From NCBI GenBank assembly GCA_947172415.1, contig OX359194.1, positions 8,642,401 to 8,706,400 of the forward strand: DNA of 64,000 nucleotides, in the 5' to 3' direction. The position numbers and the translations under genes are program-made. Origin of the DNA: Chondrosia reniformis (lineage: Eukaryota > Porifera > Demospongiae > Chondrillida > Chondrillidae). The notes beneath the pieces were generated by a model. The model had not been told where the DNA came from. It saw only the letters and a list, made by a program, of their open reading frames with translations, and searched no databases. Of this stretch, positions 6,566 through 50,300 are shown one piece after another (the stretch's first letter is position 1; the number at the start of each line of letters is the position of its first letter).

Positions 6566-9500
6566 ATGGAGAAAGAAGATATAAGGAAGAAAACGAAAGC
6601 CATTTTAAGGGCAGTTCTTCTGTCGGCGCCCAGAGGAGTGTTGGCACGTAATCTTCAGAAGGAATACTCAAATTTAACTGGTAAATATATCGACTATCGT
6701 TCCTTGGGCTATCCGTCTTTGGACAGTTTCCTTTCCAGCGTGCCTGATGTCATTAGGAGCGGGTTCTCCCCAACCGGTGAACCGGCCTTCTTTGCCGTAT
6801 CAGACGAGTCGACTGCCCACATCGCCAAACTAGTGGCCAAACAGAAGAAGCCGAAGGTCCGAGCGGGACCCAATCGCCCTCCTGTGCTGCCAAAGCAGAA
6901 ACAAACCAAGTTCTTTGCTAGCAGGTCGCCCTCCAGCACTTTCAGTAGCTCTATAGCTAGTAACCGCAAGGTCGTCAGACCCCCCCTGAAACCCGCACCA
7001 GTTCTAAGGAATCCCAGTACAGCTAGCAGGACTATATACTCTGCCAAAGGACACGGGAAATGTGACGTAGACCTCTCCAAGTCCAGACCAGTTGTGATCA
7101 AAGGGTTCTCCGAGCAGATAACCATGGATTCGAGGACACTGGTAAGTGGTACTGGGACAACTGCTCTCAATGTCTCTGTAGCAATAGGTTGGAACTTCAC
7201 TGTCTTTGTTCGAAAGGTTCGTATGACTGGCTATGTAGCAGCAAGACCTCAGCTGAAGTCCAGGATAATTAGCGGCGGAAGGCAACAAAAATTTGGCAAT
7301 ATTATTCTGAAGGATGCACTGCCAAAGGGGTATTCTGTTCTGTGTCTCTTTGTGGGACCTCAGTGGGACGTGGTTAGCACATTGCACAATCTATCCGCAA
7401 ATCATTTTATTTGATTAACTACTTGTTTGGTCTCGCAGGAGAGGAACACAGATTTCATGGCCTTGCTGAATGAAGGAGATTGTATAGTAATATTTGGATA
7501 CCCAGAGACTATTAATACTCCAAAGTATATATATAAAAAGAGTCTTGCTCTCAAAGTAGTTGCCTTTGAATCCTATACTAGTAACAGGGTAGTGGAGGGG
7601 AAACCCCCTCCTATGAAGCATGTCACTTCTCCAGTTGCTGGTGGAGTTAAAAGTTCTAGTTCTTCAGAGGACATTGAAGTGTTACTATCAGAAAGACGCA
7701 ATTCTACCTTAAAGTCTTTGTCTCAAGAAAATATTTCAGAAGAAGACATTAGGAAACTTGAGAATGAAGTTTTAGAGGTACCAGCTGACCTATATACAGT
7801 ACTGTACTAGAGGTACCAGCTGACCTACGTATATACAGTAATGTACTAGAGGTACCAGCTGACCTACGTATATACAGTAATGTACTAGAGGTACCAGCTG
7901 ACCTACGTATATACAGTACTGTACTAGAGGTACCAGCTGACCTACGTATATACACTAATGTACTAGAGGTACCAGCTGACCTACGTATATACAGTAATGT
8001 ACTAGAGGTACCAGCTGACCTACGTATATACAGTACTGTACTAGAGGTACCAGCTGAACTACGTATATACAGTAATGTACTGATGCTTCATGTACCGCAG
8101 GTGATTAAGGATGCCGAGGGAGGTATGTGGTGGAAACAAGTGGCCAAACTGTACAAGGAGAAGTACAAGAAGGATATACCAGACAATGCTCAGGCAATCT
8201 GTGCTCAAACTAGTTCAATTGAAGTGGACGAGTTAGTGTTTCAGCACTCACAGCTAATATGTAGTGATAACTAATATGTCCTCCAAACAGTACTCTAACA
8301 GGATCCAGGAATCCCAGGGTCACAGTGGCATTGAAGAGATCTCCTAAGAAAGAAGTGTCATATTGCGATCATCTTCCAGAGATGAAAGCATATGATGAAT
8401 GGTGAGGTTACCCTATGATAGTGACCTTATTCAGGCTGTCCTTACCTTATTGGGTACCCATCCCTGTGATAGTGACCTTATTCAGGCTGTCCTTACCTTA
8501 TTGGGTACCCATCCCTGTGATAGTGACCTTATTCAGGCTGTCCTTACCTTATTGGGTACCCATCCCTATGATAGTGACCTTATTCAGGCTGTCCTTACCT
8601 TATTGGGTACCCATCCCTGTGATAGTGACCTTATTCAGGCTGTCCTTACCTTATTGGGTACCCATCCCTATGATAGTGACCTTATTCAGGCTGTCCTTAC
8701 CTTATTGGGTACCCATCCCTGTGATAGTGACCTTATTCAGGCTGTCCTTACCTTATTGGGTACCCATCCCTGTGATAGTGACCTTATTCAGACTGTCCTT
8801 ACCTTATTGGGTACCCATCCCTGTGATAGTGACCTTATTCAGACTTTGTCCTACAGTGATACCTACAGTGTGATAGTGACTCATGTGGAAAGCCCCGCCT
8901 CCTTCTATGGCCATCAATTGGATCTGAACAGTGACTGTCGAAGGCTGGTGGAGGAGATGACACAATATTATACGGTTTGTCTCATTTGATGTCGTGACTA
9001 ATTGTTTCAAGAAACTCTTCTAAATGTTCTCGGCTCTTGAGAATATCTTGAGATTATTGCAAATTTCTCCTCCTCCAAATGTAGGGGCGGTTCTGCCCTC
9101 CCCCAGCGACCTCCCCACAGATGGGGTCCATTTATGCCTGTCAGTTCGCAGCTGATGGCCTCTGGTATAGGGTTAAATTGACCCGAGCAGAGGAGCCATG
9201 TTACCGTGTATTCTATGTTGACTATGGCAACGAGGAGGTTGTGGAAAGATCAAATCTGCGTCCTTTGAAGACTGACTTTTCCAAACTACCACCTTTGGCC
9301 ATAAAGTTGTCCATCTCAGAGACCCAAATGGGCTGTGAGGGGGAGACTTGGAGCAAGACAGCCATTCAGTACTTTACAGATAAAGTGTTTGATCATGAAG
9401 TGAAAGTTGTGTTTTCTGGCGAGAAAGGTAATGTATCAGCTGCCTACTGTAACCTTGAGCTTACAAATCAGTTGTTCTTGTGTCACCCCAGTGAATGATC

Positions 9501-12812: not shown

Positions 12813-13003
12813 CATTTGCCCTATCTCTGTCCATACATTAATTTTGTAGACCAGAATTTAATGTACATTGAGCACTGTAACTTTATCAGAGGTAAAGATA
12901 TGAAGCTAATACTTTCTGTGATCTTTCACAGTCATCTATAGAACATGTCCAATGGGTTTTTGAAATTTTGATATCTACTCAAATTTGCTCTATCTCTCAC
13001 CAT

Positions 13004-13329
13004 GCAAGTGACACCCAAAGCTCAACTCGGCAGAGCGTTACCACCGATCCCGGCCTCTGAGCGTCGTGGATGGTAGCGTTCGGTATGGTCCAATTTTTTT
13101 CTTTTGGAGTTTCTTTAGCAGTCGATTGGCGATTTTTCACTTTAGCGACATCCATATATTATAATATGGACAGATACTACTTCAAAACAATCAAGTATTA
13201 CAGAGTGAATATCCATGTGCATTAAAATCTTTAAAAGCGTTCTCGTCATTCAAATATACATATAAAAGTAACGTATTTTCAATATTCCCTTCTCTAGGTC
13301 GGCCATTTATATTATTACGAAACTCCCGT
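13004..13329 (+). repeat. truncated first copy of the satellite-embedded element
   Basis: Only the right half of the element is present, starting at GCAAGTGACACCC directly after a monomer. The break lies 2 bp beyond the position where full copies carry a perfect 20-bp inverted repeat. The rest matches the full copies base for base over long runs. Confidence 0.9.
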
Positions 13330-16283
13330 ACATTAAATTTCTATACAAGAATCTAATGTACATTTAGTGCTGTAACTCTGTCAATTGGAAAGATGTGGAG
13401 CTGAAACTTGTTGTCAGCATTCACAGACATCCTTAAAGCATATCCAAAGAGTTTTACAAATTTTGATGTTCACTCATATTTGCCCTATCTCTCACCATAC
13501 ATTAAATTTGTATACAAGAATCTAATGTACATTTAGTGCAATAACTCTGTCAATTGGAAAGATGTGAAGCTTAAACTTGTTGTCAGCATTCACAGACATA
13601 CATAAAGCATATCCAAAGAGTTTTACAAATTTTGATGTTCACTCATATTTGCCCTATCTCTCACCATACGTACATTAAATTTGTATGCAAGAATCTATTG
13701 TACATTTAGTTCAATAACTCTGTCAATTGGAAAGATGTGAAGCTGAAACTTGTTGTCAGCATTCACAGACATACATAAAGCATATCCAAAGAGTTTTACA
13801 AATTTTGATGTTCACTCATATTTGCCCTATCTCTCACCATACATTAAATTTGAATACCAGAATTTAATGTACATTGAGGGCTGTCACTTTATCAAATGGA
13901 GAGATATGAAGCTAAATCTTTGTGTCAGCATTCACAGGCATCTATAGAACATGTCCAATGGGTTTTTGAAATTTTGATGAAACTTAAAATTTGCCCTATC
14001 TCTCACCATACATTAAATTTGTATACCAGAATTTAATGTACATTGAGGGCTGTCACTTTATCAAATGGGGAGATATGAAGCTAAATCTTTGTATCAGCAT
14101 TCACAGACATCTATAGAACATGTCCAATGGGTTTTTGAAATTTTGATGAAACTTAAAATTTGCTCTATCTCTCACCATACATTAAATTTGTATACCAGAA
14201 TTTAATGTACATTGAGGGCTGTCACTCTATCAAATGGAGAGATATGAAGCTAAATCTTTGTATCAGCATTCACAGACATCTATAGAACATGTCCAATGGG
14301 TTTTTGAAATTTTGATGAAACTTAAAATTTGCCATATCTCTCACAATACATTAAATTTGCATACCACAATTTAATGTACATTGAGGGCTGTCACTCTATC
14401 AAATGGAGAGATATGAAGCTTAATCTTTGTATCAGCATTCACAGACATCTATAGAACATGTCCAATGGGTTTTTGAAATTTTGATGAAACTTAAAATTTG
14501 CTCTATCTCTCACCATACATTAAATTTGTATACCAGAATTTAATGTACATTGAGGGCTGTCACTCTATCAAATGGAGAGATATGAAGCTAAATCTTTGTA
14601 TCAGCATTCACAGACATCTATAGAACATGTCCAATGGGTTTTTGAAATTTTGATGAAACTTAAAATTTGCCCTATCTCTCACCATATATTAAATTTGTAT
14701 ACCAGAATTTAATGTACATTGAGGGCTGTCACTCTATCAAATGGAGAGATATGAAGCTAAATCTTTGTATCAGCATTCACAGACATCTATAGAACATGTC
14801 CAATGGGTTTTTGAAATTTTGATGAAACTTAAAATTTGCTCTATCTCTCACCATACATTAAATTTGTATACCAGAATTTAATGTACATTGAGGGCTGTCA
14901 CTCTATCAAATGGAGAGATATGAAGCTAAATCTTTGTATCAGCATTCACAGACATCTATAGAACATGTCCAATGGGTTTTTGAAATTTTGATGAAACTTA
15001 AAATTTGCCCTATCTCTCACCATACATTAAATTTGTATACCAGAATTTAATGTACATTGTGGGCTGTCACTCTATCAAATGGAGAGATATGAAACTAAAT
15101 CTTTGTATCAGCATTCACAGACATCTATAGAACATGTCCAATGGGTTTTTGAAATTTTGATGAAACTTAAAATTTGCCCTATCTCTCACCATACATTAAA
15201 TTAGTATACCAGAATTTAATGTACATTGAGGGCTGTCACTTTATCAAATGGAGAGATATGAAGCTAAATCTTTGTATCAGCATTTACAGACATCTATAGA
15301 ACATGTCCAATGGGTTTTTGAAATTTTGATGAAACTTAAAATTTGCCCTATCTCTCACCATACATTAAATTTGTATACCAGAATTTAATGTACATTGTGG
15401 GCTGTCACTCTATCAAATGGAGAGATATGAAACTAAATCTTTGTATCAGCATTCACAGACATCTATAGAACATGTCCAATGGGTTTTTGAAATTTTGATG
15501 AAACTTAAAATTTGCCCTATCTCTCACCATACATTAAATTTGTATACCAGAATTTAATGTACATTGAGGGCTGTCACTTTATCAAATGGAGAGATATGAA
15601 GCTAAATCTTTGTATCAGCATTTACAGACATCTATAGAACATGTCCAATGGGTTTTTGAAATTTTGATGAAACTTAAAATTTGCACTATCTCTCACCATA
15701 CATTAAATTTGTATAGCATAATCTAATGTACATTTAGTGCTGTAACTCTGTCAATTGGAAAGATGTGAAGCTGAAACTTGCTGTCAGCATTCACAGACAT
15801 CCATAAAACATATCCAAAGAGTTTTGCAAATTTTGATGTTCACTCATATTTGCCCTATATCTCACCATACTTTAAATTTGTATACAAGAATCTAATCTAC
15901 ATTTAGTGCCGTAACTCTGTCAAATGGAGAGATATGAAGCTAAATCTTTGTATCAGCATTTACAGACATCTATAGAACATGTCCAATGGGTTTTTGAAAT
16001 TTTGATGAAACTTAAAATTTGCCCTATCTCTCACCATACATTAAATTTGTATAGCATAATCTAATGTACATTTAGTGCTGTAACTCTGTCAATTGGAAAG
16101 ATGTGAAGCTGAAACTTGCTGTCAGCATTCACAGACATCCATAAAACATATCCAAAGAGTTTTGCAAATTTTGATGTTCACTCATATTTGCCCTATATCT
16201 CACCATACTTTAAATTTGTATACAAGAATCTAATCTACATTTAGTGCCGTAACTCTGTCAATTGGAAAGATATGAAGCTGAAA

Positions 16284-17008
16284 CCTCTTGGCTGTATGCA
16301 CATATAGCTATACAGTATATCCTGCTAGTTTTGTAAAATTTCAAAAAAGGATACCCGAGTTACTGCAGATCGAAAAATACCCTATTCTAAAGTATTGAAG
16401 ATTCGCCAACCACAAGCGTTTTCATAGGCAATTACTTTATTTAAATAGAAGATAAAACCTTATAATAGTAGGCCTACCTGGACACATCTCTATGGTGGTT
16501 GCGGTTCCCATAGAGGTTGGTAGCGCTTAGACTCTGAAGCTGTCTCCTAATCGGTTGGTGCCATAGAGACGTGCTCACCAATAATCCGGATTTCGGGGGG
16601 GTTCCACGTAATGTGGGATTGGCATCTGATATCTTAGGATTCATATGAGTCGGCCATATCGAGAAGAACTGGTTCTTCTCACGCAAGTGACACCCAAAGC
16701 TCAACTCGGCAGAGCGTTACCACCGATCCCGGCCTCTGAGCGTCGTGGATGGTAGCGTTCGGTATGGTCCAATTTTTTTCTTTTGGAGTTTCTTTAGCAG
16801 TCGATTGGCGATTTTTCACTTTAGCGACATCCATATATTATAATATGGACAGATACTACTTCAAAACAATCAAGTATTACAGAGTGAATATCCATGTGCA
16901 TTAAAATCTTTAAAAGCGTTCTCGTCATTCAAATATACATATAAAAGTAACGTATTTTCAATATTCCCTTCTCTAGGTCGGCCATTTATATTATTACGAA
17001 ACTCCCGT
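16284..17008 (+). repeat. full forward copy 1 of the ~725-bp satellite-embedded element
   Basis: Non-monomer sequence between two B-type monomers. Parts in order: an AT-rich left arm (16284-16470), a GC-richer core of ~305 bp (about 16470-16777) holding the palindrome GTAGGCCTAC, a CTCTATGG/CCATAGAG stem and a perfect 20-nt inverted repeat at 16661-16680, a T7 run, then an AT-rich right arm ending at ...ACTCCCGT before ACATTAAATTT. No recognised protein or RNA family. Confidence 0.85.
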
Positions 17009-19286
17009 ACATTAAATTTCTATACAAGAATCTAATGTACATTTAGTGCTGTAACTCTGTCAATTGGAAAGATGTGGAGCTGAAACTTGTTGTCAGCATT
17101 CACAGACATCCTTAAAGCATATCCAAAGAGTTTTACAAATTTTGATGTTCACTCATATTTGCCCTATCTCTCACCATACATTAAATTTGTATACAAGAAT
17201 CTAATGTACATTTAGTGCAATAACTCTGTCAATTGGAAAGATGTGAAGCTTAAACTTGTTGTCAGCATTCACAGACATACATAAAGCATATCCAAAGAGT
17301 TTTACAAATTTTGATGTTCACTCATATTTGCCCTATCTCTCACCATACGTACATTAAATTTGTATGCAAGAATCTATTGTACATTTAGTTCAATAACTCT
17401 GTCAATTGGAAAGATGTGAAGCTGAAACTTGTTGTCAGCATTCACAGACATACATAAAGCATATCCAAAGAGTTTTACAAATTTTGATGTTCACTCATAT
17501 TTGCCCTATCTCTCACCATACATTAAATTTGAATACCAGAATTTAATGTACATTGAGGGCTGTCACTTTATCAAATGGAGAGATATGAAGCTAAATCTTT
17601 GTATCAGCATTCACAGGCATCTATAGAACATGTCCAATGGGTTTTTGAAATTTTGATGAAACTTAAAATTTGCCCTATCTCTCACCATACATTAAATTTG
17701 TATACCAGAATTTAATGTACATTGAGGGCTGTCACTTTATCAAATGGGGAGATATGAAGCTAAATCTTTGTATCAGCATTCACAGACATCTATAGAACAT
17801 GTCCAATGGGTTTTTGAAATTTTGATGAAACTTAAAATTTGCTCTATCTCTCACCATACATTAAATTTGTATACCAGAATTTAATGTACATTGAGGGCTG
17901 TCACTCTATCAAATGGAGAGATATGAAGCTAAATCTTTGTATCAGCATTCACAGACATCTATAGAACATGTCCAATGGGTTTTTGAAATTTTGATGAAAC
18001 TTAAAATTTGCCATATCTCTCACAATACATTAAATTTGCATACCACAATTTAATGTACATTGAGGGCTGTCACTCTATCAAATGGAGAGATATGAAGCTT
18101 AATCTTTGTATCAGCATTCACAGACATCTATAGAACATGTCCAATGGGTTTTTGAAATTTTGATGAAACTTAAAATTTGCCCTATCTCTCACCATACATT
18201 AAATTTGTATACCAGAATTTAATGTACATTGAGGGCTGTCACTTTATCAAATGGAGAGATATGAAGCTAAATCTTTGTATTAGCATTCACAGACATCTAT
18301 AGAACATGTCCAATGGGTTTTTGAAATTTTGATGAAACTTAAAATTTGCCCTATCTCTCACCATATATTAAATTTGTATACCAGAATTTAATGTACATTG
18401 AGGGCTGTCACTCTATCAAATGGAGAGATATGAAGCTAAATCTTTGTATCAGCATTCACAGACATCTATAGAACATGTCCAATGGGTTTTTGAAATTTTG
18501 ATGAAACTTAAAATTTGCCCTATCTCTCACCATACATTAAATTTGTATACCAGAATTTAATGTACATTGAGGGCTGTCACTCTATCAAATGGAGAGATAT
18601 GAAGCTAAATCTTTGTATCAGCATTCACAGACATCTATAGAACATGTCCAATGGGTTTTTGAAATTTTGATGAAACTTAAAATTTGCCCTATCTCTCACC
18701 ATACATTAAATTTGTATACCAGAATTTAATGTACATTGTGGGCTGTCACTCTATCAAATGGAGAGATATGAAACTAAATCTTTGTATCAGCATTCACAGA
18801 CATCTATAGAACATGTCCAATGGGTTTTTGAAATTTTGATGAAACTTAAAATTTGCCCTATCTCTCACCATACTTTAAATTTGTATACAAGAATTTAATG
18901 TACATTGAGGGCTGTCACTTTATCAAATGGAGAGATATGAAGCTAAATCTTTGTATCAGCATTTACAGACATCTATAGAACATGTCCAATGGGTTTTTGA
19001 AATTTTGATGAAACTTAAAATTTGCCCTATCTCTCACCATACATTAAATTTGTATAGCATAATCTAATGTACATTTAGTGCTGTAACTCTGTCAATTGGA
19101 AAGATGTGAAGCTGAAACTTGCTGTCAGCATTCACAGACATCCATAAAACATATCCAAAGAGTTTTGCAAATTTTGATGTTCACTCATATTTGCCCTATA
19201 TCTCACCATACTTTAAATTTGTATACAAGAATCTAATCTACATTTAGTGCCGTAACTCTGTCAATTGGAAAGATATGAAGCTGAAA

Positions 19287-20011
19287 CCTCTTGGCTGTAT
19301 GCACATATAGCTATACAGTATATCCTGCTAGTTTTGTAAAATTTCAAAAAAGGATACCCGAGTTACTGCAGATCGAAAAATACCCTATTCTAAAGTATTG
19401 AAGATTCGCCAACCACAAGCGTTTTCATAGGCAATTACTTTATTTAAATAGAAGATAAAACCTTATAATAGTAGGCCTACCTGGACACATCTCTATGGTG
19501 GTTGCGGTTCCCATAGAGGTTGGTAGCGCTTAGACTCTGAAGCTGTCTCCTAATCGGTTGGTGCCATAGAGACGTGCTCACCAATAATCCGGATTTCGGG
19601 GGGGTTCCACGTAATGTGGGATTGGCATCTGATATCTTAGGATTCATATGAGTCGGCCATATCGAGAAGAACTGGTTCTTCTCACGCAAGTGACACCCAA
19701 AGCTCAACTCGGCAGAGCGTTACCACCGATCCCGGCCTCTGAGCGTCGTGGATGGTAGCGTTCGGTATGGTCCAATTTTTTTCTTTTGGAGTTTCTTTAG
19801 CAGTCGATTGGCGATTTTTCACTTTAGCGACATCCATATATTATAATATGGACAGATACTACTTCAAAACAATCAAGTATTACAGAGTGAATATCCATGT
19901 GCATTAAAATCTTTAAAAGCGTTCTCGTCATTCAAATATACATATAAAAGTAACGTATTTTCAATATTCCCTTCTCTAGGTCGGCCATTTATATTATTAC
20001 GAAACTCCCGT
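19287..20011 (+). repeat. full forward copy 2 of the satellite-embedded element
   Basis: Sequence matching copy 1, offset by exactly 3003 bp, with the same neighbouring monomer phases on both sides. Confidence 0.85.
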
Positions 20012-21106
20012 ACATTAAATTTCTATACAAGAATCTAATGTACATTTAGTGCTGTAACTCTGTCAATTGGAAAGATGTGGAGCTGAAACTTGTTGTCAGC
20101 ATTCACAGACATCCTTAAAGCATATCCAAAGAGTTTTACAAATTTTGATGTTCACTCATATTTGCCCTATCTCTCACCATACGTACATTAAATTTGTATG
20201 CAAGAATCTATTGTACATTTAGTTCAATAACTCTGTCAATTGGAAAGATGTGAAGCTTAAACTTGTTGTCAGCATTCACAGACATACATAAAGCATATCC
20301 AAAGAGTTTTGCAAATTTTGATGTTCACTCATATTTGCCCTATATCTCACCATACTTTAAATTTGTATACAAGAATCTAATCTACATTTAGTGCCGTAAC
20401 TCTGTCAAATGGAGAGATATGAAGCTAAATCTTTGTATCAGCATTTACAGACATCTATAGAACATGTCCAATGGGTTTTTGAAATTTTGATGAAACTTAA
20501 AATTTGCCCTATCTCTCACCATACATTAAATTTGTATAGCATAATCTAATGTACATTTAGTGCTGTAACTCTGTCAAATGGAAAGATGTGAAGCTGAAAC
20601 TTGCTGTCAGCATTCACAGACATCCATAAAACATATCCAAAGAGTTTTGCAAATTTTGATGTTCACTCATATTTGCCCTATATCTCACCATACTTTAAAT
20701 TTGTATACAAGAATCTAATCTACATTTAGTGCCGTAACTCTGTCAAATGGAGAGATATGAAGCTAAATCTTTGTATCAGCATTTACAGACATCTATAGAA
20801 CATGTCCAATGGGTTTTTGAAATTTTGATGAAACTTAAAATTTGCCCTATCTCTCACCATACATTAAATTTGTATAGCATAATCTAATGTACATTTAGTG
20901 CTGTAACTCTGTCAATTGGAAAGATGTGAAGCTGAAACTTGCTGTCAGCATTCACAGACATCCATAAAACATATCCAAAGAGTTTTGCAAATTTTGATGT
21001 TCACTCATATTTGCCCTATATCTCACCATACTTTAAATTTGTATACAAGAATCTAATCTACATTTAGTGCCGTAACTCTGTCAATTGGAAAGATATGAAG
21101 CTGAAA

Positions 21107-21831
21107 CCTCTTGGCTGTATGCACATATAGCTATACAGTATATCCTGCTAGTTTTGTAAAATTTCAAAAAAGGATACCCGAGTTACTGCAGATCGAAAAA
21201 TACCCTATTCTAAAGTATTGAAGATTCGCCAACCACAAGCGTTTTCATAGGCAATTACTTTATTTAAATAGAAGATAAAACCTTATAATAGTAGGCCTAC
21301 CTGGACACATCTCTATGGTGGTTGCGGTTCCCATAGAGGTTGGTAGCGCTTAGACTCTGAAGCTGTCTCCTAATCGGTTGGTGCCATAGAGACGTGCTCA
21401 CCAATAATCCGGATTTCGGGGGGGTTCCACGTAATGTGGGATTGGCATCTGATATCTTAGGATTCATATGAGTCGGCCATATCGAGAAGAACTGGTTCTT
21501 CTCACGCAAGTGACACCCAAAGCTCAACTCGGCAGAGCGTTACCACCGATCCCGGCCTCTGAGCGTCGTGGATGGTAGCGTTCGGTATGGTCCAATTTTT
21601 TTCTTTTGGAGTTTCTTTAGCAGTCGATTGGCGATTTTTCACTTTAGCGACATCCATATATTATAATATGGACAGATACTACTTCAAAACAATCAAGTAT
21701 TACAGAGTGAATATCCATGTGCATTAAAATCTTTAAAAGCGTTCTCGTCATTCAAATATACATATAAAAGTAACGTATTTTCAATATTCCCTTCTCTAGG
21801 TCGGCCATTTATATTATTACGAAACTCCCGT
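21107..21831 (+). repeat. full forward copy 3 of the satellite-embedded element
   Basis: Offset 1820 bp from copy 2; same internal landmarks and same junctions with the 169-bp monomers. Confidence 0.85.
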
Positions 21832-22588
21832 ACATTAAATTTCTATACAAGAATCTAATGTACATTTAGTGCTGTAACTCTGTCAATTGGAAAGATGTGG
21901 AGCTGAAACTTGTTGTCAGCATTCACAGACATCCTTAAAGCATATCCAAAGAGTTTTACAAATTTTGATGTTCACTCATATTTGCCCTATCTCTCACCAT
22001 ACGTACATTAAATTTGTATGCAAGAATCTATTGTACATTTAGTTCAATAACTCTGTCAATTGGAAAGATGTGAAGCTTAAACTTGTTGTCAGCATTCACA
22101 GACATACATAAAGCATATCCAAAGAGTTTTGCAAATTTTGATGTTCACTCATATTTGCCCTATATCTCACCATACTTTAAATTTGTATACAAGAATCTAA
22201 TCTACATTTAGTGCCGTAACTCTGTCAAATGGAGAGATATGAAGCTAAATCTTTGTATCAGCATTTACAGACATCTATAGAACATGTCCAATGGGTTTTT
22301 GAAATTTTGATGAAACTTAAAATTTGCCCTATCTCTCACCATACATTAAATTTGTATAGCATAATCTAATGTACATTTAGTGCTGTAACTCTGTCAAATG
22401 GAAAGATGTGAAGCTGAAACTTGCTGTCAGCATTCACAGACATCCATAAAACATATCCAAAGAGTTTTGCAAATTTTGATGTTCACTCATATTTGCCCTA
22501 TATCTCACCATACTTTAAATTTGTATACAAGAATCTAATCTACATTTAGTGCCGTAACTCTGTCAATTGGAAAGATATGAAGCTGAAA

Positions 22589-23313
22589 CCTCTTGGCTGT
22601 ATGCACATATAGCTATACAGTATATCCTGCTAGTTTTGTAAAATTTCAAAAAAGGATACCCGAGTTACTGCAGATCGAAAAATACCCTATTCTAAAGTAT
22701 TGAAGATTCGCCAACCACAAGCGTTTTCATAGGCAATTACTTTATTTAAATAGAAGATAAAACCTTATAATAGTAGGCCTACCTGGACACATCTCTATGG
22801 TGGTTGCGGTTCCCATAGAGGTTGGTAGCGCTTAGACTCTGAAGCTGTCTCCTAATCGGTTGGTGCCATAGAGACGTGCTCACCAATAATCCGGATTTCG
22901 GGGGGGTTCCACGTAATGTGGGATTGGCATCTGATATCTTAGGATTCATATGAGTCGGCCATATCGAGAAGAACTGGTTCTTCTCACGCAAGTGACACCC
23001 AAAGCTCAACTCGGCAGAGCGTTACCACCGATCCCGGCCTCTGAGCGTCGTGGATGGTAGCGTTCGGTATGGTCCAATTTTTTTCTTTTGGAGTTTCTTT
23101 AGCAGTCGATTGGCGATTTTTCACTTTAGCGACATCCATATATTATAATATGGACAGATACTACTTCAAAACAATCAAGTATTACAGAGTGAATATCCAT
23201 GTGCATTAAAATCTTTAAAAGCGTTCTCGTCATTCAAATATACATATAAAAGTAACGTATTTTCAATATTCCCTTCTCTAGGTCGGCCATTTATATTATT
23301 ACGAAACTCCCGT
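22589..23313 (+). repeat. full forward copy 4 of the satellite-embedded element
   Basis: Offset 1482 bp from copy 3; same landmarks and junctions. The following monomers differ slightly in order from those after copies 1-3. Confidence 0.85.
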
Positions 23314-24849
23314 ACATTAAATTTCTATACAAGAATCTAATGTACATTTAGTGCTGTAACTCTGTCAATTGGAAAGATGTGGAGCTGAAACTTGGTGTTA
23401 GCATTCACAGACATACATAAAGCATATCCAAAGAGTTTTACAAATTTTGATGTTCACTCATATTTGCCCTATCTCTCACATTACGTACATTAAATTTGTA
23501 TGCAAGAATCTATTGTACATTTAGTTCAATAACTCTGTCAATTGGAAAGATGTGAAGCTTAAACTTGTTGTCAGCATTCACAGACATACATAAAGCATAT
23601 CCAAAGAGTTTTACAAATTTTGATGTTCACTCATATTTGCCCTATCTCTCACCATACGTACATTAAATTTGTATGCAAGAATCTATTGTACATTTAGTTC
23701 AATAACTCTGTCAATTGGAAAGATGTGAAGCTTAAACTTGTTGTCAGCATTCACAGACATACATAAAGCATATCCAAAGAGTTTTACAAATTTTGATGTT
23801 CACTCATATTTGCCCTATCTCTCACCATACATTAAATTTGAATACCAGAATTTAATGTACATTGAGGGCTGTCACTTTATCAAATGGAGAGATATGAAGC
23901 TACATCTTTGTGTCAGCATTCACAGGCATCTATAGAACATGTCCAATGGGTTTTTGAAATTTTGATGAAACTTAAAATTTGCCCTATCTCTCACCATACA
24001 TTAAATTTGTATACCAGAATTTAATGTACATTGAGGGCTGTCACTTTATCAAATGGAGAGATATGAAACTAAATCTTTGTGTCAGCATTCACAGACATCT
24101 ATAGAACATGTCCAATGGGTTTTTGAAATTTTGATGAAACTTAAAATTTGCCCTATCTCTCACCATACATTAAATTTGTATACCAGAATTTAATGTACAT
24201 TGAGGGCTGTCACTTTATCAAATGGAGAGATATGAAACTAAATCTTTGTATCAGCATTCACAGACATCTATAGAACATGTCCAATGGGTTTTTGAAATTT
24301 TGATGAAACTTAAAATTTGCTCTATCTCTCACCATACATTAAATTTGTATACCAGAATTTAATGTACATTGTGGGCTGTCACTGTATCAAATGGAGAGAT
24401 ATGAAGCTAAATCTTTGTATCAGCATTCACAGACATCTATAGAACATGTCCAATGGGTTTTTGAAATTTTGATGAAACTTAAAATTTGCCCTATCTCTCA
24501 CCATACATTAAATTTGTATACCAGAATTTAATGTACATTGAGGGCTGTCACTCTATCAAATGGAGAGATATGAAGCTAAATCTTTGTATCAGCATTCACA
24601 GACATCTATAGAACATGTCCAATGGGTTTTTGAAATTTTGATGAAACTTAAAATTTGCCCTATCTCTCACCATACATTAACTGTCTATTGCAGTTATTTA
24701 AAGTACATTAAGTGCTGTTACTCTTCCAAATGAAGAGATTTGAGTCTGAAACTCTATCTCAGTATTCACAGAGATGTATGAAAGGTTTTTATAGGGTTTT
24801 GCAAATTTTGATATCTACTCAAATTTGCCCTATATCTCACCATACATTA

Positions 24850-25890
24850 GCTAACCCTAATTGCGTAATACTATAAATGGCCGACCTTGAGTAGGTATAT
24901 ATAAGAGTGAAATACGGTACTTCATATATTTCTGAAAATTAGAACTCTTTGAAAGATTTCTTATACACATGGATATGCACTGTGTAGTACTTGATTGTTG
25001 TTGAAGCAGTATTTATCCACATATATAATATGGATGTCGTTAAAGTGAAATTTTGCCGATCGACGGCCAACGAAACTCCAAAGAAAAAAAGTTGGACCAT
25101 ACCGAACGCTACCATCCACGACGCTCAGAGGCCGGGATCGGTGGTAACGCTCTGCCGAGTTGAGCTTTGGGTGTCACTTGCGTGAGAAGAACCAGTTCTT
25201 CTCGATATGGCCGACTCATATGAATCCTTAAAGATATCAGATGCCAATCCCACATTACGTGGAACCCCCCCGAAATCCGGATTATTGGTGAGCACGTCTC
25301 TATGGCACCAACCGATTAGGAGACAGCTTCAGAGTCTAAGCGCTACCAACCTCTATGGGAACCGCAACCACCATAGAGATGTGTCCAGGTAGGCCTACTT
25401 TATAAGGTTTTGCGCTTCTATTTAAACAAGAAAATTTCAAAAGGAAACGATTGTGGTTGGCGCTATTCCATACTTAAGAATAGGGAAAAATGTAGTCAAA
25501 TTATATCGAGTTAATTCGGGATAAGTGCATCGTTCCAAGCCATTTTAAAGGCATATGCAGTATTCGTGGTTCATCTAGAAACTGTGAAAAATGGATAGAA
25601 TCCTGTAAGTGTCTTGATTGACGGAGGAGAAGTACTTTTCTGGTCCCACGTAGAAACGATTTTAGCGAGAGGTGTTCCGATATGAACGTAAACTAGTATA
25701 ACCAGCCACACTCAATCTCAATTGCTGTAATAGTATAATGGCTACCTGCCTCTATATAAAGACCTTCTGATAGCTGCGTTCTGGACTGTTTCTGCGTGTT
25801 TCTAGTTGCCCCATTCATGTCAAATCATTTTAACTTGGTATGCCGATAATTTCCATAATAGTATCGCACGATATAAATGCTACACCATTA
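24850..25890 (-). repeat. inverted, older copy of the satellite-embedded element
   Basis: Reverse-complement of the element. Its arms differ from the forward copies at about one base in five (for example 24995-25090), but the ~305-bp core at 25094-25400 differs only by a 2-bp insertion near 25230. It is flanked on both sides by C-type monomers and interrupts one at ACATTA, the same monomer position that borders the forward copies. From about 25530 to 25890 it carries extra sequence absent from the forward copies. A 51-codon frame starting MDVVKVK lies at 25030-25185; its equivalent in the forward copies is also open. No protein family recognised. Confidence 0.75.
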
Positions 25891-26640
25891 AAGGTCGTAT
25901 AGCAGTAATTTAAAGTACATTAAGTGCTGTAACTCTTCCAAATGAAGAGATATGAATCTGAAACTCTATGTCAGTGTTCACAGAGATGTATGAGAGATTT
26001 TCAATGAGTTTTGCAAATTTTGATATCTACTCAAATTTGCTCTATCTCTCACCATACATTAACTTCGTATAGCAGTAATTTAAAGTACATTGAGGGCTGT
26101 CACTTTATCAAATGGAGAGATATGAAGCTAAATCTTTGTGTCAGCATTCACAGACATCTATAGAACATGTCCAATGGGTTTTTGAAATTTTGATGAAACT
26201 TAAAATTTGCCCTATCTCTCACCATACATTAAATTTGTATACCAGAATTTAATGTACATTGAGGGCTGTCACTCTATCAAATGGAGAGATATGAAGCTAA
26301 ATCTTTGTATCAACATTCACAGACATCTATAGAACATGTCCAATGGGTTTTTGAAATTTTGATGAAACTTAAAATTTGCCCTATCTCTCACCATACATTA
26401 AATTTGTATACCAGAATTTAATGTACATTGAGGGCTGTCACTCTATCAAATGGAGAGATATGAAGCTAATACTTTTTGTCAGCTTCCAAAGACATCTATA
26501 GAGCATGGCCAAAGAGGTTTTGAAATTTTGATTGAACTTAATATTTTCCCAATCTCTCTCCATATATTAACTTCATTTATCAGAATTTAGTGTATATACA
26601 TTGAGGGTTGTAACTCTAGAGATATGAATGATGGCTTTCC

Positions 26641-27089
26641 TAGCTATGGTGACGGAAGAACCAAAGTTGCAAGCCCTCCTAATGGAGGATTTCCGTTGCC
26701 ATCCAGGTTGGGTATGCTATGTCGGTAATTGCATCCCTCCCTATCAGTGCAGCAGTCAACATTGATTTTATGGTTTAATGTGACTATGTGTATGTAGCTA
26801 GTTTTAATATTATTTTTTTAATAATATTTTTTAAAGTATATAATTCGTAATAATAATTATAAGATACATCCAAAAAAAGAAGAAAATGTTTATTGAAACA
26901 AGTTTTATAAGTCAGCCACGGGAGAGCCCCAGTCCTTTCTAGCTCCATGCATGTAAACTCTTAACTTGGTGTAAGCATTTAGACATATATGAAACATTTC
27001 CAAAGTGGTTTATAACTGCAGACCAGTGATTTTTTCTAAGAACGACGCGTTTCCCATGCAGTCGAGTACAAAGGGAACTCGATTAAAAA
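26641..27089. other. gap between satellite and COMMD9, nothing recognised
   Basis: AT-rich sequence including homopolymer-rich stretches at 26805-26880. No supported gene, RNA or repeat; the last part must hold the COMMD9 promoter. Confidence 0.5.
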
Positions 27090-29744: not shown

Positions 29745-33836
<4,092 letters not shown>

Positions 33837-34007: not shown

Positions 34008-36333
34008 TTATTCAGACCACAATCCTTTGTGGTTGGACCACATTCCTTTGTGAGAGTGGTAGTTGTGTAGCAGGCCTGGGTATTTGTGTCGAAACACTTC
34101 CAGCCCCTTGGCAACCAGTCTGTGGATGGAGAGGGACTGTCTTAGGGTTCTGCACTTGCAAAGTAATAGTTTAATATGATTGGTATATAGAAGAGTGCCT
34201 CTGTCCCGCAAGTGGGTGGCTGAATGAATGTATACTTGTGCTGTACCTGTCCATGCAGTCCCAGTCCTCTCCGCCCCATACTTCACCATATTCTTCAACA
34301 TTTTCACCTCCAATGGCCACCCAATCAGATTTGTACAGGCTCATCAGTCCGTACCCCTTCAGTTCCCACACTCCTATATAGACGCACAACAAGGCAAAGG
34401 TTAGGGAGCACACAAGCATGTCAGAAAGTGTACCTCGCATAAAACTCTTGCTAAATCCCGCTTCCAGTCTAAACACCTCAGGAGTGTAACCCATGCGACC
34501 TTGTATGGTGTGCTGCACAGATACACATACACAGGCAGTACATATACTAAACAACATCGGACACTACAAATCTTTTGAGTTGCACAGAACAAGGAAACCT
34601 TACTTTTCTGATGGACTGCAGCATACCACTCGGAATATCCAGATGCAAATCAATTGTCATTACAATTTCATTTGGATCCTACAAAGATCACAACATTTGC
34701 ATCACTGGCTGAGAAAGGCCCTTGTCGCACGACCAACTCACTATCACCCAGTCTATCCCGGCCTGGAGCCCTCTGGCTCGCTCAAAGTTTCCTTCCAAGG
34801 TCAACAGTTTATACATTTGGCTGAAGGAAACACACTTTGGTAAACACTTTTAAACAATTTACACATGAAGAGCTCACGGCTTCAACTTGCTTGCTTCCAG
34901 GATCTCCTGGATGTCCACGTCAGTGCTATGAAAGTCAACAATTACCAACACTAAATTCTCATCTCCAGTTTTCAAGTAAATCTACAAAGAGGACAAGTGT
35001 AGTTGGCCAGAAGGGGGGCGCCAGTATAACTCACGTCTTCAATGTTGTCTACAAGATATTTAATCCACGCAGCACCATTCTTCACAGCAATAACAATATT
35101 AATCCGACTCCCAGGGTTCCATTGATGGCCCTTTATTGAGCACATTTCAAAATCTGAACTCAATTCTGTCTCTTTAAGAACAAAATACTGTGATATGTAT
35201 GTTGGATTGGGTGAGGTGGTCCAGAGTATTTCCTGTAGATTGATACAGGACACAGCATCCTATGCAACCCTTGTTATGCAATTGGACAACTAACAGCATC
35301 CACAATAAGTCGCCACATTTTTAATTCATTTTCCTCAAAAGTGGCGGCATTGGGCGTGCTCTCAAGCAAACGAATCTTTAACTCACTAAAACTATCAAAA
35401 TAAGGAAACTGACTAAATAAGGAAATAGGGTCTAGTAGTACTCACGTCTTATAATTCTTCATGAGGGCATCCTTCAAAATTCCTTCAACAGCATTCACAA
35501 TCTAAGTATACAGCACAAACCAGTTTACAAACCAGTTTACACCAGTTCAGGTACTAAGTGTGGAGAAATATACCTTAGCTGGAACCAGGGGATTCCCCCC
35601 ATCATCTGCATTCACAAACAACCTCCAAGTGTGATCATCTGGGTACGTACTCGACTCAAACACCTCTAGATACCCTTCATACTTCTCAACCGTGTGCTCT
35701 CTGGCATAACTGGGATGGTATTCACATTCAGGCAGTATTTCTTTTAAAACAGTAACTACAAAAAGTCGAGCAAAGGGAAAGAAATAAGTGGAGCAAATCG
35801 AATGTAATTAGGGTTAGAGGTAGTGGGTGGGATTAGAGGTAGTGGGTGGGATTAGAGGTAGTGGGTGGGGTTAGAGGTAGTGGGTGGGATTAGAGGTAGT
35901 GGGTGGGATTAGAGGTAGTGGGTGGGGTTAGAGGTAGTGGGTGGGATTAGAGGTAGTGGGTGGGGTTAGAGGTAGTGGGTGGGATTAGAGGTAGTGGGTG
36001 GGGTTAGAGGTAGTGGGTGGGGTTAGAGGTAGTGGGTGGGGTTAGAGGTAGTGGGTGGGATTAGAGGTAGTGGGTGTGGTGGAGTTAGTGCATCACGGAG
36101 TTATTGGAATGCAAACTTACAGTCCTTCAGAACTTGATCTCCTACATAAGGTACTGACTGCATATTTACTACAACTATCGAGAGAGAGAGATTCATGCTA
36201 AATACGTAAAGCTATGTATTTGAGAGTATTGCGACTCACATGATAATAGACGAAAACGATAATAAAAAAGTACAACTAGACAAATACTAGCCAGTAGAAT
36301 GTGTTTATAATAAATTACTAAGTAGTACATCAT
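34008..36333 (-). CDS. CHGN-family glycosyltransferase (chondroitin GalNAc-transferase-like), type II membrane
   Basis: A Golgi-type II membrane protein. Exon 1 (36333 down to ~36241) encodes a short cytosolic start and one hydrophobic segment (ILLASICLVVLFYY). Later exons encode a stem (EYHPSYAREHTVEKYEGYLEVF region) and then a catalytic domain of the CHGN type: INIVIAVKNGAAWIKYLVD, LVLVIVDFHSTDVDIQEIL, EGNFERARGLQAGIDWVI, a D-rich segment IVMTIDLHLDIP in the place of the DXD, then YKSDWVAIGGEN and WGGEDWDCMDR, the usual C-terminal WGGED signature. It ends VFRHKYPGLLHNYHSH before TAA at 34008-34010. The family transfers GalNAc or GlcA to chondroitin or related glycans. CSGALNACT and single-domain CHPF-like members cannot be separated by eye. 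An intron at 35760-36110 holds a 19-bp repeat. Confidence 0.8.
35812..36080. repeat. 19-bp minisatellite in the glycosyltransferase intron, ~14 copies
   Basis: Units GTGGGTGGG(A/G)TTAGAGGTA, 19 bp, with one alternating A/G position. It lies between the exons at ~36120 and ~35760 of the minus-strand gene. G-rich on the plus strand. Confidence 0.95.
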
Positions 36334-43088: not shown

Positions 43089-44834
43089 ATGTCGTGTATT
43101 GCAGTTCACGTGGGAGCGGGATACTTTAGTGAAGCGAATGTCGAGAAGGCGAAGGTTCTATGCCGAGATTCCTGTCAGAAGGTACGACCTGAGATATCGT
43201 CTACATCTTGTAGGCTCCGCCCTGTAATGTCACACTAACCGCGTATGCACCAGGGTCTCCAGAGCGTCGCTGATGGCGGTCACATTTCCGCTGCAGTAGC
43301 TACAGCAGTGAAGACTTTGGAGGTCAGTCGTTCATCTAACTGCTGTGGAGTGACTTGTGGTGCATATCCATTGGACAGGACTCTCCACTGACTAATGCTG
43401 GTGTTGGGTCCAGCTTGACCTTGACTGGCGGAGTGGAGTGCGATGCAAGTGTAATGGATGGCACGACACTCGGCTACGGAGCGGTTGGAGCGGTAAGTGG
43501 AGTCAGAAATCCAGTCCTTGCAGCTCTGAGCATCATGGAACAGGAAAAGAAAGGCTTGTTAACTTTGGGGCGTGTTCCTCCAATGTTAGTGCTTCTTAAG
43601 ACACTGCTCCACTGTGTGCATATGAACGAGATACTCCTTGGGTAGGTTGGTGGTTGGAGAGGGCGCTCGCAAGTGGTGCAGTGACCACGGAGTGGACCTC
43701 TGCAAGCCAGGGGATCACTTGACCAAGAAGACAAAGGCCTCATTCAGAGAACACTTGGAATCACTGAACACCTCTGTCCAGAAGGACAGATCTGAAGGAG
43801 GAGCTGTCAGCAGTCAAGTGTCTCTTGACACTGTCGGAGCAGTAGGAGTGGATGGGAAGGGGAATATGGCTGCAGCCTGCTCCAGTGGGGGGATCTCCCT
43901 AAAGTTCCCAGGAAGGGTGGGTCAGGTGGGTGTGTCTATGTAGTGCATGTACTGTCTGTATGGGTATGTTCCTCACTGACAGGCTGCTCTGTATGGGTGT
44001 GGCTGCTGGGCGGATAGCAGACCCTCCGCTGAAGGAGCAGTGGCCATCTGCAGCACAGGTAAGCAGTGGTGTGTGGTTCCTTGGGCTTCGCTGATCTGAG
44101 GGGCTGACTGTAGGAACTGGAGAGCATCTCGTTAAGACAGCCCTGGCAAGAACTGTAGGAGAGCACCTGGCTATGAGGTGGGTGTGGCATGAGTGTGAGG
44201 TGGGTGTGGTATGAGTGTGAGGTGGGTGTGGCATGAGTGTGAGGTGGGTGTGGCATGAGTGTGAGGTGGGTGTGGTATGAGTGTGAGGTGGGTGTGGTAT
44301 GAGTGTGAGGTGGGTGTGGCATGAGTGTGAGGTGGGTGTGGCATCACTGTGAGGTAGTTGGATTTAGTTTGAACTTTCCCCCTGCTAGTGAGGATGGATG
44401 TCTATCTCTGCCCCAAAGCATTAAGGATCACTTTCTATGTAAGAGTGTACTTACTAGCTATTGTGATTGTTTATATAGACTCTTTATCCCAGCCCACCCT
44501 TCGCTATCCACTTTGGCTGCCAAGTATGGAGGTGTGCTGGCTATGTTGGGACTCAAAGATGGTGAGGTGCCTGTTTAGTGTGGTCTGCCTTACCGTGTAC
44601 CCTCCTCCCTCGGCAGGTCGGGTGGAAGTTGCTTGGGCACACACAACTGAACACATGATCGTTGGTTTCTATGATGCTACACACAAAGTGGTCGTGGTAC
44701 GTCACACTTCTCATCTCCTGTCAGCATGTGCCACTTCTGTACTACTCAACTGGCAGGATCACTTCTCAAAGATGTCTGCTCCGCAGAGGCCTGGCTACGA
44801 TGTGCAATTTGGCAACATCTGCACTCGTTCATGA
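43089..44834 (+). CDS. TASP1: Taspase-1 (threonine aspartase)
   Basis: An Ntn-hydrolase of the asparaginase-2 family that self-cleaves and then cuts MLL/TFIIA-type nuclear proteins after Asp. Start MSCIAVHVGAGYFSE. Family signatures: PLTNAGVGSSLTLTGGVECDAS, DGTTLGYGAVGAV, the autocleavage site SLDTVGAVGVDGKGN with the catalytic Thr, SSGGISLKFPGRVGQ, ALYGCGCWAD, and TGTGEHLVKTALAR. The C-terminal part has VEVAWAHTTEHMIVGFYD and then, after an intron at about 44698-44758, DHFSKMSAPQRPGYD to a TGA at 44832-44834. A minisatellite occupies the intron after HLAM at 44175. The CGCW motif and long loop separate it from asparaginase-like ASRGL1 and from AGA. Confidence 0.93.
44167..44355. repeat. ~22-bp minisatellite in a TASP1 intron, ~8 copies
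   Basis: Units GTGAGGTGGGTGTGG(C/T)ATGA, about 22 bp. The exon ends CTATGAG|GTGGGT, so the array begins on the splice donor, and each unit repeats GTGAG|GTGGGT. Confidence 0.93.
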
Positions 44835-47322: not shown

Positions 47323-50300
47323 TCAAGTATACATGATTATGTTAATATGAATACACTGAGTAGAGTGATGTGCTTTGAAGTGTTCTATTCTCCTGTGAGC
47401 TCTTGTATGTAAGTTGTGTGACAACGTGACACCTTCATTGCCGTCTTGTACATGTCCTCTTCTGCATACGTACCTGCAACTGAGAGTCGGAGAGAACCAT
47501 TTGCAGTCATTACATAGTAAGCTCTTTGTTAGTGTTCTCTTGCTAAACAGACCTTTCCTGTAGTTTGTTGGGAAAGCATTAATCATTGTCCCCACAATTT
47601 GGCGGAGGTCTTCATCAGGATTACCATAAAAGGATCTGTCAGTGGGTTCAGACATAAAGCTACTTGAAATGTTCACCCCTCGACTAACCAGTCCTGCTTA
47701 TGAGAATGAAGACAAATTTAGTTAGTAGAGAACACATGGAGTTAGGAGGTGTACAGCATGGCCTACCCTGCCCCCCTGGAATAGTCATGGAAGAGCTCCC
47801 CGTGGTTGTCTGAGGTTGTGGCTGTTGAACCTGCGTACAGTGCAAAGAAATGTATAGTATATTCATCTTACAAAACAAGAATTGCTTATAAAAGGCTCCA
47901 CCTTCTCTCTGGCTGCCCTCTCGGTGAGCTGGTCTCTGGCTGCTCTCTCGGTGAACTGGTCTCTGGCTGCCCTCTCGGTGAGCTGGTCTCTGGCTGCCCT
48001 CTCGGTGAGCTGGTCTCTGGCTGCCCTCTCGGTGAGCTGGTCTCTGGCTGCCCTCTCGGTGAGCTGGTCTCTGGCTGCCCTCTCGATGAGCTGGTCTCTG
48101 GCTGCCCTCTCGGTGAACTGGTCTCTGGCTGCCCTCTCGGTGAGCTGGTCTCTGGCTGCCCTCTCGGTGAGCTGGTCTCTGGCTGCCCTCTCGGTGAACT
48201 GGTCTCTGGCTGCCCTCTCGGTGAGCTGGTCTCTGGCTGCCCTCTCGGTGAGCTGGTCTCTGGCTGCCCTCTCAGCCAGTTGAGTTCTTGCTATTTTCAG
48301 CTGGTCTTCAAGCTGTTTGATTTGTGTATCCTTAACATCAAGGCGAGCAGACATGAAGGATTTCTGTAGTGAATAGAGTTCAGGGTCTACCCCTATCTGC
48401 TTCTCTATTGTCACTGGTTCTGTAAAAAGAGCACTTGTATTTTTGAAATCTTGCAGTTCTTGAACAAGTGCACTGTACAAAGAGAAACGCTGTTGAAATG
48501 GCTTAACAGATACACAAAGTTAACATACTCCTTTTGTGTCACAAGATCTGTAATGAATTGTCTTATTTCTGAAGTCCCTACACTAGAGGGAAGCACTCTA
48601 GAATTCTCATAAGGTGACCTTTGACCTGTAGCACACCCTGGACCGATAGTGACACCTGGAGACAAGTACTCATTATCAGGTGATTGGGAAGGTTGTCTTT
48701 GAGGGACCTCCCTGAAGATAGGCTCTGATCTAGATTGGTCAGGCTCCTGTTGAGACCTAGGGACAGGCACTGGTTGTGTTGCAAGATGTCTACTACTGTA
48801 ATCTCTTGGTTTGGGAATGGGTCCTTGGACCCCCTCTTGGTGAGGTCCGGTGGTATGCTGTCTGGAGTGGGTTGTTGGGAGTGGTACTGAGGCTGGCTGA
48901 TAGGACACATTAGCAAAGCTGACATCATTGCCCTCCACCTGCATAGGGTGTTCTGCACGTTGGTACTCCTGTAATTTGGAGGGAGTGTCTCTATAATAAA
49001 GATCTGTCATTCTAGGATGCACTTCTGCAGTCACTTGAGTGGAAGGGCTCTGCACCTCTAGTTCCTGCAACCTACAATAATAGTAAGTGAGGTCCGTGGG
49101 GCTGTGGTTGGTATGGAGGATGTATATACCTGTCGGCAAGGTGGCCTATTCTTGTGTGGGGATTTTGGAAGATCTCAGCATCACCTTCTTGATCTTGTGT
49201 CTCAGATGTCCTCTGTGGACTGAATGCAAACAACACTTCAGTTTTGTGATCATGCAAGATATGTACACATACAATGCACAAAAACGGGGAATCTCAGAAT
49301 TGGGCCTATATAATACTCAGTAGTACTTTAATATACATAATGTACCTGCTTATATACCTCTATATTAAAAGTTTCAATAATGCACCATAATGAGGAGTAC
49401 CTTTGCTGGCGAGGCTGAGCAGCATCTGTTTCTTCCTCTGGAGGACTGTCTGGATGGTCAAGGAATGTCTTCTTCATTGACTTATTACGATATTGTCTTG
49501 TCAGTTTGTTTTTGAAGACTTTGAAAAAGTCTCGGACATCATCTCCACTGGTGGTCTGAAGAGGAGGAGTCACTATGAACTAAATAAAGGTGACAGCTCA
49601 AATCACTTACCACAATGTTGTATTCCCTGAACGGATGTGTAACTTTAATATTTTTTGGCATTTTCTGTTGGAAATAGCAATTCTACAAAATAACAAAGCA
49701 TAGAGTCAAGTCATTAGAGAAAACAATTGTTGTCTTAAGAGTACTTGGCAAAGGTCAACACTGAAAGACTTCAAGCTTCGGAATCGCATTCCAATGATAG
49801 GAAATGCTTTGCATGTACTGCATTTGGCTTCATGTTTCACTAAATCGCAAGAGAACATGAGATACCAAGATGGATGGAATTACTTTCAACACGTAAACAT
49901 GGTGCTAAGAACATTTGTTGCAAATTGCAAACTGACTTGTTTCAGAGGCTGCTAGTCTGTGCAGTGTAGGAAGCCAAACTGCAAACTTTGGCTCTTCAGA
50001 CATCCAAAACACAAACTCTTCTTTGTCAATGTTCTGTCCCTTCTGCTTGTTAACCTGAACAGTTCCGGTTAACAAAGCTGAATGGAATGGCAATACAAAG
50101 GATGCACATATAGTAACATACCAACTGGTAGATACTACTGACTGCAGGCTCTATCAAAGCATCTCCAAAGGTGGCACTCTCAAACACTTGCTTTGGTATC
50201 TGCATAGAAGAGCGTCAGTTAATTAACACTAGTGTGTGTGCATTAATTGACACTTACTAAAAGCAAATCTTTGACTATATCTCTTAGCTGATCTGCAGAT

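Follow-up and report, generated by a model that had tools for sequence, protein, structure and literature searches.

A 169-bp satellite array carrying a candidate non-coding RNA gene in the sponge Chondrosia reniformis

The stretch analysed here is 64,000 nucleotides of Chondrosia reniformis DNA (contig OX359194.1, positions 8,642,401 to 8,706,400 of the forward strand), referred to below as the window. It contains a satellite block (12834-26594, + strand) in which 169-bp monomers are interrupted by copies of a longer, non-satellite element. The element is read here, with modest confidence, as a non-coding RNA gene about 305 nt long, whose transcription would most likely depend on RNA polymerase III (Pol III) and an external promoter. 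The satellite would be its length-variable spacer, and the array would have grown by in-register unequal exchange. An internal block of the element has 0 substitutions in 306 positions between forward and inverted copies, against 80 in 320 positions of its flanks, and the element is therefore likely to be the functional part rather than the satellite. The most likely seat of function is the element, as an RNA gene with a satellite spacer.

Element copies and the invariant block

The copies of the element, with the position of the invariant block in each, are as follows.

Copy 1, 13001-13328, + strand: 5'-truncated, with the 3' 328 bp only; similarity to the other copies begins at 13001.
Copy 2, 16280-17007, + strand: 728 bp, identical to copies 3-5; invariant block 16467-16772.
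Copy 3, 19283-20010, + strand: invariant block 19470-19775.
Copy 4, 21103-21830, + strand: invariant block 21290-21595.
Copy 5, 22585-23312, + strand: invariant block 22772-23077.
Copy 6, 24850-25885, - strand: inverted; invariant block 25092-25399.

Copies 2-5 share 100% identity over 728 bp. With 728 bp identical in four copies, the repeat is far beyond chance. Copy 1 holds just the last 90 or so nucleotides of the candidate RNA gene (13004-13093). Part of copy 6 (24861-25485) aligns to the forward copies at 88.8% identity. A separate alignment of a forward copy with the inverted one covers 626 positions and shows 80 substitutions, all of them outside the invariant block (16467-16772 in copy 2). 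Within the block the two copies differ by one 2-nt indel at about 16635. The upstream flank contains 23 substitutions in 86 positions and the downstream flank 57 in 234. The G+C content of 16463-16776 is 51.0%, compared with 33.3% and 32.0% in the flanks and 32.1% in the first satellite array.

Three short features of copy 2 adjoin the block.

CGCCAACCACAA, 16404-16415, + strand: kept in the inverted copy; PSE-like (proximal sequence element) position, -64 to -53 from an assumed start at 16468.
TTTAAATA, 16440-16447, + strand: kept in the inverted copy; TATA-like position, -28 to -21 from the same assumed start.
T7, 16773-16779, + strand: the only run of at least six T in the 728-bp element; candidate Pol III terminator.

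The last base of the block (16772) directly precedes T7, which is the T run predicted to terminate a type 3 Pol III gene. In the inverted copy the run retains its length of seven (A7 on the + strand at 25084), although adjacent bases have changed. The block begins 27 bp after the first base of TTTAAATA and 63 bp after the first base of CGCCAACCACAA. The upstream motifs common to the forward and inverted copies are CCCTATTCT, CGCCAACCACAA, TTTAAATAG, and CCTTATAA. Type 3 Pol III promoters are described as having a TATA box near -30 and a PSE at -50 to -60 (PMC7279448). TTTAAATA is close to this TATA position given the assumed start, though in an A+T-rich flank. CGCCAACCACAA lies near the PSE distance and may, by its position, be a PSE. 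At the distance of a distal element (about -210 to -240), copies 2-5 contain the last decaying monomer and copy 6 contains unmatched sequence.

The predicted transcript covers about 16468-16776 and would read on the + strand in copies 2-5 and on the - strand in copy 6. We infer from this arrangement that the block may be transcribed, and with that its probable polymerase, strand, start site, and function.

The RNA-gene reading and its alternatives

Several observations weigh against an RNA gene. Just two independent versions of the element are present in the window, and a gene-conversion tract could therefore also yield the identity of the block. Gene conversion is the main rival. Under it, the locus would be an inert satellite higher-order repeat with the element as a passive spacer, and the invariant block would be a recent conversion tract of the forward copy with the inverted copy. 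Arrays of this type are expected to undergo conversion, and a tract length of a few hundred bases would not be unusual. Over their 728 bp, copies 2-5 already show complete homogenisation, as conversion would have it. The tract, however, must end by chance one base before the only long T run of the element. It must also start just past the conserved promoter-like motifs, coincide with the G+C-rich island, and have converted the block of copy 6 yet spared its flanks. This explanation is considered unlikely, although it deserves the most weight among the rivals.

The promoter-like motifs were chosen after the alignment had been seen, and TATA-like strings are common in DNA that is about one-third G+C. 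Upstream of about -90 the similarity between copies 2-5 and copy 6 ends, and there is therefore no shared distal element. Folding leaves the strand unsettled. The minus-strand z value is the more negative in 4 of 4 pairs (plus/minus: -0.94/-3.03, -2.08/-2.25, -1.53/-2.08, and -1.36/-2.71).

The Rfam 15 covariance models also gave 0 matches at gathering scores across the window. At expectation (E) values up to 10 there were five sub-threshold matches (in counts of 1, 4, and 0), every one outside the invariant block. No relative was found in the viral, bacterial, archaeal, and plasmid collections searched, so no covariation can be used. Exact patterns (pieces of the block and one piece of the satellite) gave 0 matches in viral contigs and in scans of genome contigs. 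A blastn search with the 728-bp element returned no match in phages and one 40-bp match in plasmids (E 0.2). Since the collections are viral, bacterial, archaeal, or plasmid, their silence says little about eukaryotes.

The last point on this side is an 80-amino-acid stop-to-stop frame that runs through the block on the minus strand and is open in copies 2-5. The indel breaks the frame in copy 6, where the part beyond the indel remains open. Formally, a small peptide could still come from this frame. An explanation by protein coding was rejected. In the parts tested, ATG frames reach at most 56 and 61 amino acids, and the 2-nt indel shifts the frame. Coding alone does not explain the block because it contains no synonymous change and has the indel inside it.

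Other RNA classes did not fit either. For a type 2 Pol III gene or a short interspersed element, matches to internal A and B boxes were no better than in shuffles: of 500 shuffled sequences, 463 (A) and 367 (B) reached the + strand scores, and 434 and 311 the - strand scores. 7SK RNA is described with repeated GAUC in its 5' hairpin (PMC8406779). The block has no repeated 5' GAUC and contains a single GATC at 16725, near its 3' end. ARAGORN found no tRNA in the window.

Copy 6 bears on a further alternative, the insertion of a non-autonomous mobile element into the satellite in both orientations, with later amplification of element and satellite together. The copy is inverted within an array whose orientation is unchanged. 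The monomers flanking it are 84.8% alike and spaced exactly 1212 bp apart, and CATTA is found on either side of 24850-25885. Inspection by eye places the 3' junction of the forward copies and that of the inverted copy at nearly the same monomer phase, to within several bases. All of this would suit an insertion. The terminal inverted repeats of copy 6, however, fall short of significance, with equally good matches in 100 of 1000 shuffles, and copies 2-5 lack its right-hand 400 bp (25486-25885). That segment has no counterpart in the window except two short matches (E 0.25 and 0.88). No coding capacity is seen beyond the short ATG frames given above, and no stop-to-stop frame of at least 75 amino acids starts in copy 6. 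Transposition would also leave the invariant block unexplained. A mobile origin is rated as improbable, below gene conversion.

A telomere-like sequence of ten bases (CTAACCCTAA) is located at 24851-24860, at the junction of array 5 with the inverted element. A third diverged copy of the element was suspected by eye near 27.2 kb (GTGCCACAGAGATGCG) and rejected, as its score of 37 compares with a shuffle mean of 33.3 and 72 of 300 shuffles were as good. When the block was aligned locally to the rest of the masked window, the best further matches (scores 54, 49, and lower) were long, gappy, and without shuffle control, and were not counted.

Satellite spacers and unequal exchange

The landmark GCAAGTGACACCC has exact starts on the + strand at 13004, 16683, 19686, 21506, and 22988. 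The spacings of 3679, 3003, 1820, and 1482 bp each leave a remainder of 130 modulo 169, as the sequence-only reading had stated. Over 10-26 kb, the autocorrelation has maxima at 169 bp, at multiples of this period, and at each of the four unit spacings. A sixth copy of GCAAGTGACACCC, absent from the earlier reading, is inverted (- strand, 25169). In copy 1 a monomer reaches right up to the landmark, and the first landmark therefore marks a broken copy. The earlier observation is confirmed; the truncation of the first copy and the inverted copy had been missed.

Each interval is composed of n monomers of 169 bp plus 806 bp, where n is 17, 13, 6, and 4 steps. The 806 bp (4 x 169 + 130) comprise a non-periodic 802-bp block and the 4 extra bp of one 173-bp monomer per unit. 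An element of fixed size had been described between the monomers. The remainder is not due to this element alone, as it also includes the 4 bp contributed by the longer monomer. Given 169-bp monomers and homologous exchange in register, equal remainders are expected. The four congruent spacings are therefore one fact and not four independent ones.

Tandem Repeats Finder placed 169-bp arrays at 13329-16279, 17008-19282, 20011-21107, 21831-22589, 23313-24849, and 25886-26594. Anchoring the monomers at their starts split the region into steps and gaps. The steps are 169 bp, with a few of 173 or 170 bp. Of the gaps, four measure 802 bp and correspond to the forward elements, while truncated copy 1 accounts for a gap of 495 bp and inverted copy 6 for one of 1212 bp. 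The arrays are listed below.

Array 1, 13329-16279, + strand: 17 monomer steps, one of 173 bp; last anchor at 16206, with its monomer decaying into the element.
Array 2, 17008-19282, + strand: 13 monomer steps.
Array 3, 20011-21102, + strand: 6 monomer steps.
Array 4, 21831-22584, + strand: 4 monomer steps.
Array 5, 23313-24849, + strand: two 173-bp monomers; last monomer diverged.
Array 6, 25886-26594, + strand: orientation as in the other arrays.

An imperfect inverted repeat with 18-nt arms, 83% complementary and 10 nt apart, is present in array 6 at 26218-26263 and 26387-26432 and spans the starts of two monomers. Visual inspection puts the element junctions in the stretch of the monomer that carries this repeat. 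A decayed monomer remnant, also identified by eye, lies to the right of array 6 at 26970-27015.

The 57 monomers cut out of the arrays cluster into families of 32, 19, and 4 members and two singletons. Family A (32 members) is found mostly in array interiors and family B (19 members) mostly beside elements. The 4-member family consists of the last monomer preceding each full forward element. The same monomers, identical in sequence, recur across different units. One B-to-A chimeric monomer occurs at four places (15868, 20353, 20691, and 22173). At the 30 sites that separate A from B, this chimera reads two A, five B, and then 23 A.

Exact-match blocks between neighbouring units, considered from 150 bp upwards, reach 1824 bp at a shift of 1820, 1260 bp at 3003, 996 bp at 1482, and 920 bp at 3679. 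A comparison of units 1 and 2 over 2500 positions shows 35 differences. Five further comparisons gave 2 of 500, 0 of 1000, 0 of 1824, 0 of 400, and 0 of 1260.

Unequal exchange is well supported. The earlier proposal of exchange in register, with a non-monomer element moving as part of the unit, is borne out by the identical elements, the exact blocks of up to 1824 bp, and the shared and chimeric monomers. In the proposed mechanism, homologous satellite would pair out of step between sister chromatids or homologues. An in-register crossover would then multiply or remove whole units of gene and spacer, and the spacer would change in length by whole monomers. Such exchange would keep the forward genes identical and leave decaying edges. 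Truncated copy 1 would be the left-hand edge, and the right-hand edge would consist of the diverged monomers that surround inverted copy 6.

Identical blocks of 1824 and 1260 bp between units could also come from an assembly artefact, either units falsely repeated or haplotypes strung together. Against this, the number of monomers differs in all four intervals, and the 35 differences between units 1 and 2 mean that they are not simple duplicates of one stretch. Such duplication cannot account for the inverted copy either, given its diverged flanks. An artefact is regarded as very improbable.

Genomic setting and related systems

The gene content of the window is eukaryotic. Pfam matches were found in 8 of 10 translated stretches: Tudor (two), OST-HTH/LOTUS, Tctex-1, Sel1, AAA, NHL, and protein kinase. 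The satellite block lies between protein-coding genes, in keeping with the gene-dense setting noted earlier; the stretches neighbouring it match LOTUS, Tudor, Tctex-1, Sel1, and AAA. Two minisatellites with periods of 39 bp (7773-8081) and 51 bp (8411-8842), both multiples of three, lie within reading frames that are open in the region separating the LOTUS and Tudor stretches, and the predicted products would contain repeats of 13 and 17 residues. Highly homogeneous minisatellites in gene-rich DNA are also present at 1-193 (27 bp), 31396-31764 (31 bp), 35814-36076 (19 bp), 44174-44355 (22 bp), and 47906-48273 (27 bp), with 96-99% matches within them.

Tandem RNA genes with subrepeat spacers are an organisation of a known kind. 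In ribosomal DNA, the intergenic spacers bear subrepeats and vary in length by whole subrepeats. The array described here resembles ribosomal DNA and other tandem RNA-gene arrays in this change of spacer length. It differs from ribosomal DNA in having no rRNA family match, four full forward copies only, Pol III-like signals, a 169-bp satellite as the spacer, and an inverted copy.

A resemblance to centromeric higher-order repeats had also been suggested. In the strict sense it is not supported: there is no unit of fixed length, as the steps per unit number 17, 13, 6, and 4, though many monomers are identical between units. Satellite higher-order repeats, such as alpha satellite and the satellite DNA of the nematode Meloidogyne, are alike in having distinct monomer families in larger repeated units, an arrangement described for Meloidogyne (PMC3694981). 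Here, in contrast, the number of monomers is not fixed, a non-satellite element anchors the unit, and the location is between genes.

The rodent 4.5SH RNA genes are similar in that a lineage-restricted Pol III RNA gene lies within a longer tandem unit. They are described as hundreds of copies, each within a 4-5 kb tandem repeat (PMC7279448). The RNA is given as about 100 nt, derived from 7SL, with internal A and B boxes (PMC3440375, PMC10137851). The candidate here, unlike 4.5SH, is about 305 nt, has A and B box matches no better than shuffles, and has no Rfam match.

A more specific proposal is that the block encodes a Pol III RNA of about 305 nt that is lineage-specific and new to description, and that the satellite, acting as a dedicated recombination spacer, maintains and homogenises its gene number. 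This is put forward tentatively and is more doubtful than the general RNA-gene reading. Should the block be no more than a conversion tract, the locus would amount to an interrupted satellite of an ordinary kind. If it is an RNA gene, the array would be a small, fully readable RNA-gene family caught during growth. Within 14 kb it would then show exchange points in the spacer, duplicates of recent origin, a broken copy at the edge, and an inverted copy that is older, along with a structured-RNA candidate that is matched by no current Rfam model.

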